Assembly: GCF_001306035.1 (NCBI RefSeq) | Contig: NZ_LGCM01000014.1 | Span: 1-57,500, forward strand | Length of the DNA: 57,500 nucleotides | Reading direction: 5' to 3' | Source of the DNA: Levilinea saccharolytica | Lineage (GTDB): Bacteria > Chloroflexota > Anaerolineae > Anaerolineales > Anaerolineaceae | Shown here: positions 6,241-9,843 of the stretch, in pieces | Numbering within the stretch: position 1 is the stretch's first letter | Layout: every line of letters begins with the position of its first letter | Translations under genes and position numbers: made by a program | The notes under the pieces: model-generated | Told to the model about the DNA's origin: nothing | Database searches by the model: none | Seen by the model: the letters and a program-made list of their open reading frames with translations, nothing else

Positions 6241-6798
6241 ATGCAGGCAACTGAAATCTTAATGTCCGAACACCGCGTCATCGAACGCGTCATCGCCGCC
6301 CTGGAAAGCGCCGCCAACCAGCTGGACGAAGGCCAGCCCCTTCGCCCCGGCTTCTTCCTGGACGCCGCCGACTTCATTCAAGGTTTTGCCGACGGCTGCC
6401 ACCACCGCAAAGAAGAAGGCGTGCTCTTTAAGATGCTGGGCGACCACGGGCTGCCCGCCCAGGGTGGGCCGGTGGGGGTGATGCTGGCCGAACACGCCCA
6501 GGCGCGCCAGATCACCGCGGTCCTGCGCAGCGCCGCCCAAAGCCTGGAAGCCGGGGACGCCAGCGCGCGGCCGGATGTGACCCGCAGCGCCCGCGCCTAT
6601 GCCGCCCTGCTGCGCCAGCACATCCTCAAAGAGGATACCATCCTCTTCCCGGCGGCCGACCGCGTCATCCCTGCCGAGCTGCACGCCGCCGTGCTGGACG
6701 GCTTTGAGCACGTTGAACATGAGGAAACCGGCGAGGGCGTGCACGAGAAATATCTGGCGCTGGCCCAATCGCTGGAAGTGGAAGCCGGTTTAGGGTAA
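6241..6798 (+). CDS. Hemerythrin HHE domain protein
   Basis: 185 residues forming a four-helix hemerythrin-type fold. Candidate di-iron ligands are H11 in 'SEHRVIERV', H54 and E58 in 'CHHRKEE', H85 in 'LAEHAQ', and H127 with E131 in 'RQHILKED'. Such cytoplasmic HHE proteins bind O2 or NO, or repair iron centres damaged by NO. It lies directly downstream of the cytochrome cd1-like gene in the same orientation, which makes a role in NO sensing or detoxification plausible; this is inference from position. It is followed nine bases later by a methyltransferase gene, so the three may share a transcript. Confidence 0.85.
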   Translation: MQATEILMSEHRVIERVIAALESAANQLDEGQPLRPGFFLDAADFIQGFADGCHHRKEEGVLFKMLGDHGLPAQGGPVGVMLAEHAQARQITAVLRSAAQSLEAGDASARPDVTRSARAYAALLRQHILKEDTILFPAADRVIPAELHAAVLDGFEHVEHEETGEGVHEKYLALAQSLEVEAGLG

Positions 6799-9085: not shown

Positions 9086-9796
9086 CTAAAACGCATCCTC
9101 TGGCTTCCACTCTTTCCAGACCTTACCCACCAGGTGGGGGCCCGGGCTGAGAGTGGGTTTGCCCGGCTGCCAGCCCGAAGGCGTCACTTCGCCGGTCTTG
9201 ACCACGTGTTGGAAGGCTTTCACCTGGCGAATCAGTTCGCTGACGTTGCGCCCAACCTCGGGGGTCAATACCTCCATCGCGCGGATGTTGAAATCAGGGT
9301 CAATGATGAACCGCCCGCGGATATCCACCCCGGCGTCTTCGTCATACACCCCATACACGCTTCCAACTCGTCCGCCGGCGTCCGAAAGCAGCGGGAAAGG
9401 CACGCCGCCCGGCACCATCTTAGAGAGTTCTTCTTCCTGCCAAATTTTGTGGGAGAAACGGCTGTCGGTGCTGAGCGCGAAGATCTCCACACCCATTTCT
9501 TTCAATTCCGGATATTTGACGGCAACTGCCGACAATTCGGTCGGTCAAACAAAGGTGAAATCACCCGGATAGAAGCAAATGACGATCCATTTGCCCTTAT
9601 AGTCTGAGAGTCTCACGTTCTTAAAGCCGCCGTCCACAAACGCGGCCAGTTCAAAATCGGGAGCGGGTTTGCCCACGCGTGCAAGCATTTTCGAGACCTC
9701 CTTTCCTAAAGTTACGGTTAAAGGTTCCTGATTGGGAGCCTCCAAAGCGATGGGGCCTTTGGAGGGCTTGACACAGCCGTCTTTGGCTTCTGCCAT
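9086..9796 (-). CDS. Selenocysteine-containing peroxiredoxin (AhpC/Prx1-like), in-frame TGA at 9545-9547
   Basis: 236 residues if the TGA at 9547-9545 is read as selenocysteine (Sec84). The frame is unbroken on both sides, and the TGA falls exactly where the peroxidatic Cys belongs: '[18 protein letters not shown]', against the family signature FYP.DFTFVCPTE. The downstream half is fully conserved ([25 protein letters not shown]). It would reduce peroxides through a selenolate. The usual resolving Cys in 'GEVCP.GW' is Thr here (GEVTPSGW), and no Cys remains after Sec, so it would act as a one-Sec enzyme needing an external thiol. A SECIS-like hairpin follows the TGA. Two starts have strong Shine-Dalgarno sites: 9796 (AAAAGGAGG) and 9688 (AAAGGAGG; this would place Sec at residue 48, the usual position). 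The alternative, a nonsense mutation or sequencing error, would have to hit this one codon by chance. Confidence 0.85.
9516..9535 (-). promoter_or_regulatory. Candidate bacterial SECIS element
   Basis: On the minus strand, 12 bases after the TGA, the RNA can fold as UUG-U-CGGC-[AGUU]-GCCG-U-CAA. This gives a three- plus four-base-pair stem with one U-U mismatch and a four-base loop with G in second place. A G in the first two loop positions, about 16-37 bases from UGA, is the known bacterial SECIS pattern for SelB binding. An alternative stem, CCGAC/GTCGG starting directly after the TGA, is mutually exclusive with it. Confidence 0.6.
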
Positions 9797-9843
9797 ACTG
9801 CCTCCTTTTGGGTCAAGCTGGATATGGGGGGTGTCCTTTATTG

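Follow-up and report, generated by a model that had tools for sequence, protein, structure and literature searches.

A probable selenocysteine peroxiredoxin gene of Levilinea saccharolytica, with two putative translation starts conserved among its relatives

The prxU locus and its reading frame

The window analysed is a 57,500-nucleotide stretch of Levilinea saccharolytica DNA (contig NZ_LGCM01000014.1, positions 1 to 57,500), and the gene under study, prxU, lies on its minus strand with the features collected in Table 1. An earlier note on this DNA had described a conserved AhpC/Prx1 frame with a single TGA at the peroxidatic codon, and this was borne out by translation and Pfam searches on the minus strand: the sole internal stop of the peroxiredoxin frame is the TGA of codon 84 (9547-9545), the AhpC-TSA domain (PF00578, 130.3 bits) runs across it, and the 1-cysPrx_C tail (PF10417, 35.6 bits) shares the frame of the AhpC-TSA part. 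The peptide quoted in that note, which named no strand, matched the minus-strand frame exactly, and the plus-strand frame translated over 9086-9796 gave no peroxiredoxin reading. As had been predicted, literal ORF calling splits the gene in two, into an 83-aa ORF (9796-9545) and a downstream 149-aa ORF with a TTG start, and the downstream half, said to be free of decay, continued intact to the TAG. The N-terminal cysteine arm, the loss of the resolving cysteine and the second start go beyond that note.

Table 1. Features of the prxU locus (positions in the window; all on the minus strand)
Feature	Position	Strand	Description and evidence
prxU	9086..9796	-	236-residue frame, TGA read as selenocysteine, TAG stop 9088-9086; translation, NF040737, PF00578, PF10417
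First Shine-Dalgarno AGGAGG (within AAAAGGAGG)	9801..9806	-	4 nt before ATG 9796-9794; sequence
N-terminal arm and linker, codons 1-36	9689..9796	-	conserved motif, Cys8 at 9775-9773; conservation, coding substitution pattern
Second, internal Shine-Dalgarno AGGAGG (within AAAGGAGGT)	9697..9702	-	8 nt before internal ATG
Internal start ATG, Met37	9686..9688	-	at the canonical start of peroxiredoxins; would give a short form of 200 aa
Cys74	9575..9577	-	10 residues before Sec; in 137/138 Sec sequences vs 0/8 Cys homologues
TGA codon 84, predicted selenocysteine	9545..9547	-	peroxidatic position (FTFV-U-PTE); translation; relatives 155/163 TGA, 8 Cys
Bacterial SECIS region, predicted	9518..9547	-	hairpin 9533-9518; synonymous covariation and isolated-hairpin folding
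SECIS stem pairs (numbered from T of TGA)	9533-9518	-	15-30, 17-28, 18-27, 19-26, 20-25; apical AGUU 9527-9524
Thr205	9182..9184	-	column of canonical C-terminal resolving Cys (GEVTPSGW); alignment to Prx1/Prx2

The product scored 387.6 bits against NCBIfam NF040737 (PrxU; cut-off 270) over residues 6-233 of 236, arm included, and is therefore a new member of the known PrxU family; against TIGR03137 (AhpC) it reached 187.6, below the equivalog threshold of 272. An AlphaFold2 model of the product had a mean pLDDT of 87.1, and the best structural matches listed for it were Tsa2 (Z 25.7), PRDX4 (25.6), Prx2 (24.8) and AhpC (24.4), a listing from which the absence of a fold family excludes nothing. 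The predicted activity is that of a thioredoxin-dependent peroxidase.

Within the window, prxU is neighboured by genes for a DUF2202 protein and a phosphotransferase-like protein, and a hemerythrin-domain protein (6241-6798, plus strand; PF01814, 79.8 bits) is encoded about 2.3 kb away. Across 80 loci, neighbour families within about 5 kb, each named from one identified member, included rubrerythrin (11 loci), desulfoferrodoxin (10), Fur (8) and an ODP-domain, flavodiiron-like family (6). These neighbours fit peroxide defence in anaerobes, with most loci showing none of them. The largest sense family (15 loci) looked by eye like common ABC transporters, and two of the larger clusters (20 and 9 loci) were dismissed by eye as antisense frames overlapping prxU.

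Decoding of codon 84

The assembly carrying prxU comprises 4.23 Mb in 65 contigs, with a completeness of 97.65% and an estimated contamination of 4.94%. All four of selA, selB, selC and selD, the search for which had been proposed in the earlier note, were present in it: a tRNA-Sec(UCA) above the cut-off (75.7 bits; anticodon TCA), SelA (435.2 bits), SelB (307.8 bits, or 334.3 with neighbouring matches in frame) and SelD (356.7 bits). The SelD gene (L018, G000:C10:81857-82789, minus strand) looks like a selenoprotein gene too, because it contains an in-frame TGA at CAG-TGA-ASKL, read as CAG-U-ASKL.

Relatives were compared at the peroxidatic codon. Sec or Cys occupied the column, a check that the earlier note had proposed: TGA stood there in 155 of 163 parsed relatives (near-duplicates included), and the other 8 had a Cys codon. 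The parsed entries consist of 126 (120 with TGA) and 37 (35 with TGA); L145 lies outside them, as does L143, which is cut by the end of its contig and starts within the codon. A 97%-identical gene (L119), from a second genome of the genus, has TGA at the same codon. Among 400 Chloroflexota genomes sampled, 16 had matches at E ≤1e-40, numbering 18 (peroxidatic Sec in 15, Cys in 3), and a Sec copy was carried by 14 of the 16, as it was by 27 of the 101 genomes sampled in the family; the family's 28 best matches (E ≤2.4e-84) had TGA at the codon in 27 cases, and one began inside the codon at a contig end. With a Sec copy in 14 of the 16 matching Chloroflexota genomes and in 27 of 101 family genomes, and the protein family catalogued as PrxU, the earlier remark that such a gene would be notable in a Chloroflexota-like background was too strong. 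In 299 genomes of Firmicutes, the phylum of the genome (G491, a Peptococcaceae record) that holds locus L098, 40 matches exceeded the PrxU cut-off, and TGA lay inside the match in 40/40; the place of the codon was checked in the 30 of these that were fetched, all with TGA at the peroxidatic codon. A pattern search of genome contigs returned at least 591 matches, 584 of them encoding relatives, and the best 80 of the 584 had TGA at the codon in 80/80, a figure biased to close relatives because only the best 80 were kept. No relatives in viral contigs were confirmed by the scan.

For the following comparisons, 109 Sec loci (120 Sec entries minus 11 at ≥90% nucleotide identity) were combined with 29 from the second phylum, Firmicutes, into a set of 138 Sec sequences, which is uninformative on TGA frequency because it was chosen for having TGA. 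The relatives are phylogenetically linked, and neither their counts nor the p-values are independent draws. In a quick tree of 146 sequences the 138 Sec sequences fell on one side; Sec monophyly is not claimed, because branch support was only 31 and the Cys branches were long. One relative (L030) has an additional TAA within the enzyme core. Trichlorobacter thiogenes (locus L097) is a carrier that has been cultured. A Cys-type relative (L038, G089:C13:40662-41297) occurs in a genome that also holds a Sec copy, and has the active-site Cys, F at -10 and a tail Cys three residues beyond the usual resolving position.

The hairpin downstream of the TGA was analysed by folding and by alignment. Folded in isolation, the prxU hairpin gave -5.7 kcal/mol (z -3.38), while longer windows of the single gene, covering the 41-61 nt after the TGA, stayed short of significance (z -0.4 to -1.5). 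In the alignment of the 109 Sec sequences, pair 20-25 was C-G in 109/109, and pairing was retained at 19-26 in 107, at 18-27 in 108 and at 17-28 in 104; position 16-29, a U-U mismatch in the L. saccharolytica gene, pairs in 73/109 relatives. RNAalifold predicted only the four pairs from 17-28 to 20-25, and pairs 15-30 and 21-24 rest on covariation. The loop pair 21-24, both members of which are third codon positions, was A-U in 60 sequences, G-C in 47 and G-U in 2 (n=109). Of 462 third-position pairs (within the first 150 nt past the TGA, codons ≤11 apart; median mutual information 0.049), the highest values were obtained for 21-24 (0.88), 18-27 (0.81) and 15-30 (0.60). Such covariation, measured here in related sequences, provides direct evidence that RNA pairing is under selection, and the predicted SECIS is convincing through the alignment only, not through single-gene folding. 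The prxU relatives thus provide a clean SECIS alignment with synonymous covariation.

Conservation of the TGA across many genomes and phyla effectively refutes the reading of prxU as an ordinary Cys peroxiredoxin hit by a nonsense mutation or a sequencing error: in one sequence taken by itself, a lone stop in the frame would give the same picture, and the assembly has 65 contigs and 4.94% estimated contamination, but TGA recurs at that codon in 155/163 parsed relatives, the 97%-identical gene among them, the hairpin covaries at synonymous sites, the Sec machinery in the genome is complete and the sequence after the TGA shows no decay. The claim of a probable selenoprotein is hence supported by Sec machinery, TGA conservation and SECIS covariation. 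The gene almost certainly encodes a true selenoprotein, and we hold with high confidence that prxU of this Chloroflexota member of the Anaerolineaceae specifies the Sec peroxiredoxin PrxU. SelB-type recoding of UGA84, guided by the hairpin 15-30 nt downstream, would place Sec at the peroxidatic position, a reading supported by the sequence comparisons.

Further candidate selenoproteins were observed in the same genome. In a second likely Sec peroxiredoxin (L186 / L195, G000:C34:77658-78416), an AhpC-TSA domain is fused to a CPDC-containing glutaredoxin domain, and its peroxidatic codon is TGA (FFPLAWTPI-U-TSQIP). Two other Chloroflexota (L196, L197) retain both this TGA and the fusion, and the protein fell short of the threshold in each of the 25 NCBIfam families listed out of 29. 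A Prx-like or SelL-related protein (L190, G000:C21:38511-38882) carries a TGA in frame, within a UPFC motif (UxxC), and did not reach the SelL-related cut-off.

Sec peroxiredoxins have been catalogued repeatedly, with 12 on a 2006 list (PMC1794560), 43 from the Sargasso Sea (PMC1088965) and 91 in 78 organisms in 2016 (PMC5029168), and the family is covered in a 2026 review (PMC13188914). The table of the 2006 survey gives only three selenoproteins for Chloroflexi (PMC1794560), and to a lineage with three entries in that table prxU adds a supported selenoprotein that plain reading splits.

Two ribosome-binding sites and the N-terminal arm

The internal start was assessed with a rule that required a Shine-Dalgarno core of ≥5 nt located 4-12 nt before an internal ATG, GTG or TTG, and the null was obtained by synonymous recoding of the same peptides. 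Such a core was present in 99/109 Sec loci (null mean 25.4, max 35; 200 trials), and the full AGGAGG in 74/109 (null 17.9, max 27); the 10 misses include L114, mis-located by the search motif, and L025 and L106, in which the spacing exceeds 12 nt. In the long forms of the second phylum, a set that leaves out near-duplicates and L180 (truncated where its contig ends) and in which L174 is the same gene as L098 of the first set, 18/20 had the internal core (null 4.2, max 10; 500 trials). A start codon (ATG, GTG or TTG) lay within the five-codon window in 126/128 loci, and where valine occupied the start column with no ATG nearby it was encoded by GTG in 14/14 cases, compared with 29.7% elsewhere (nominal p 4e-8). 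Both the start codon and the internal core were missing from L095 and L118, which are sisters in the tree.

The upstream region was compared by differences per codon position in 346 pairs from 27 family sequences. The Cys8 motif gave 0.198/0.154/0.579, the core 0.122/0.065/0.498 and the upstream leader 0.728/0.717/0.705 in the same pairs, while the linker was weakly constrained (0.475/0.474/0.587). This pattern indicates that the arm is translated and is under coding selection like that on the enzyme core. A core of ≥5 nt preceded the candidate first start in 113/126 relatives with the arm, a plain count without a null, in which the first start was taken as the best-SD candidate within 16 codons, a rule that favours a high count. 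The 3' end of the organism's 16S was not found in the assembly with one mismatch allowed, and its anti-SD was therefore assumed.

Selection seems to act on both starts, and the gene most likely yields one longer and one shorter protein: we put at roughly three in four the probability that ribosomes start at the two conserved sites, which would give a long form of 236 aa that carries the Cys arm and a 200-aa short form corresponding to the canonical enzyme. Long-form PrxU genes in several bacterial phyla would then probably specify two selenoproteins per mRNA by conserved dual initiation. PrxU was first reported by Sohling et al. in 2001 from Eubacterium acidaminophilum; its Sec there is reportedly residue 47, a position that would match the short form.

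Production of the long form only, with the internal AGGAGG acting as a ribosome pause or arising as a by-product of the conserved K-E-V peptide, would account for the finding that 90/99 internal cores share one reading phase, in which K/Q-E-V would encode the core. It is nevertheless improbable, as synonymous recoding yields a properly spaced core in a mean of 25/109 loci against 99 observed, 9 loci have the core in other phases (over Gly-Gly codons, for example), 126/128 retain a nearby start codon, with all 14 start-column valines that have no nearby ATG encoded by GTG, and the sister pair lost the core and the start codon together (a single event). Production of the short form only, with the arm an untranslated leader, is very unlikely: local matches to more distant relatives mostly start near query residues 33-41, where the internal start lies, and some PrxU genes have no arm, but the arm retains its frame and Cys motif, its codon-position differences resemble those of the core, unlike those of the leader, and 113/126 candidate first starts have their own core.

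If both forms are indeed made, mixed oligomers could, speculatively, allow adjustment of how many thiols are tethered, by a mobile arm, close to Sec sites that no longer have the usual resolving Cys. In a PrxU gene from Zixibacteria (L117), a signal-peptide-like stretch recognised by eye, preceded by an SD-like AGGAGG, replaces the Cys arm, and the internal Shine-Dalgarno and ATG are retained; judged by its sequence, this gene might make an exported protein as well as a cytosolic one.

Candidate partners of selenocysteine and comparison with known systems

The column of the resolving Cys, GEVCP in Prx1/Prx2, aligns with Thr in the prxU product. In the 138 Sec sequences this column contained Cys in none, Thr in 111 (with 2 more, L052 and L073, unparsed and read by eye as Thr), Met in 19, Ala in 3, Leu in 2 and Ile in 1, and a Cys elsewhere in the tail was found in 3/138. 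Loss of the resolving Cys is thus, on the alignment, general in this set. A tail Cys was present in all 8 Cys homologues, whose residue at -10 was F in 5, L in 2 and V in 1, never Cys. The sole Sec sequence of the 138 without Cys(-10), L182 (G532), has a C-terminal tail Cys instead, possibly a compensating change.

In the proposed catalytic cycle, the selenolate would reduce a peroxide, forming a selenenic acid, which, with the C-terminal Cys lost, would be resolved by a different Cys within the protein, by a thiol from outside it (thioredoxin, for instance) or by both. Cys74 is the best internal candidate partner because it is nearly universal in Sec sequences, and the arm residue Cys8 would be an accessory candidate. 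By inference, an external thiol that reduces Sec directly is as possible as a partnership with Cys74, and the role of Cys74 could instead be structural.

As a first idea, Cys8 was considered a simple stand-in for the resolving Cys, and this was weakened by short-only genes that have neither. The arm Cys taking the place of the lost C-terminal one accords with its presence in 126/138 Sec sequences (L177 counted; L180 and L179, with an unrelated upstream Cys, excluded), none of which has a C-terminal Cys in the usual column. It is doubtful all the same: the short-only PrxU genes L175, L178, L181 and L183 contain neither the arm Cys nor the resolving Cys and yet keep the active-site motif, so that Cys8 cannot be essential for resolution; the residue would also be absent from the predicted short isoform; and the AlphaFold2 model leaves the arm unplaced because linker residues 19-33 have pLDDT <50. 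Specific residues are thus offered for testing how Sec peroxiredoxins are resolved.

Altogether, a single gene appears to combine two conserved ribosome-binding sites with a conserved Cys arm in only one product and to have dropped the classical resolving Cys. A literature search with thin coverage of subscription journals found no report of a dual start in a selenoprotein or a bacterial peroxiredoxin, and the dual ribosome-binding sites are apparently an unreported feature of a known enzyme family.

The closest known system is PrxU itself (NF040737), with which the product shares Sec at the TxxU peroxidatic site; the passages of the PrxU literature available describe no internal start, arm Cys or loss of the resolving Cys. 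With AhpC and the typical 2-Cys peroxiredoxin Prx1, the product has the fold and the active-site motif in common, and it differs from them in having Sec for Cys and in having Thr where the resolving Cys would stand. The predicted SECIS resembles that of E. coli fdhF in being a short stem-loop 3' of the UGA inside the coding region and in its apical loop, GGUC or AGUU in the PrxU alignment, and differs in that the hairpin is encoded by Ala-Val-Ala residues of the peroxiredoxin. In its two in-frame starts and one common stop codon, prxU resembles bacterial genes with in-frame internal starts, from which N-terminal proteoforms have been described (PMC11005335, PMC9430671).
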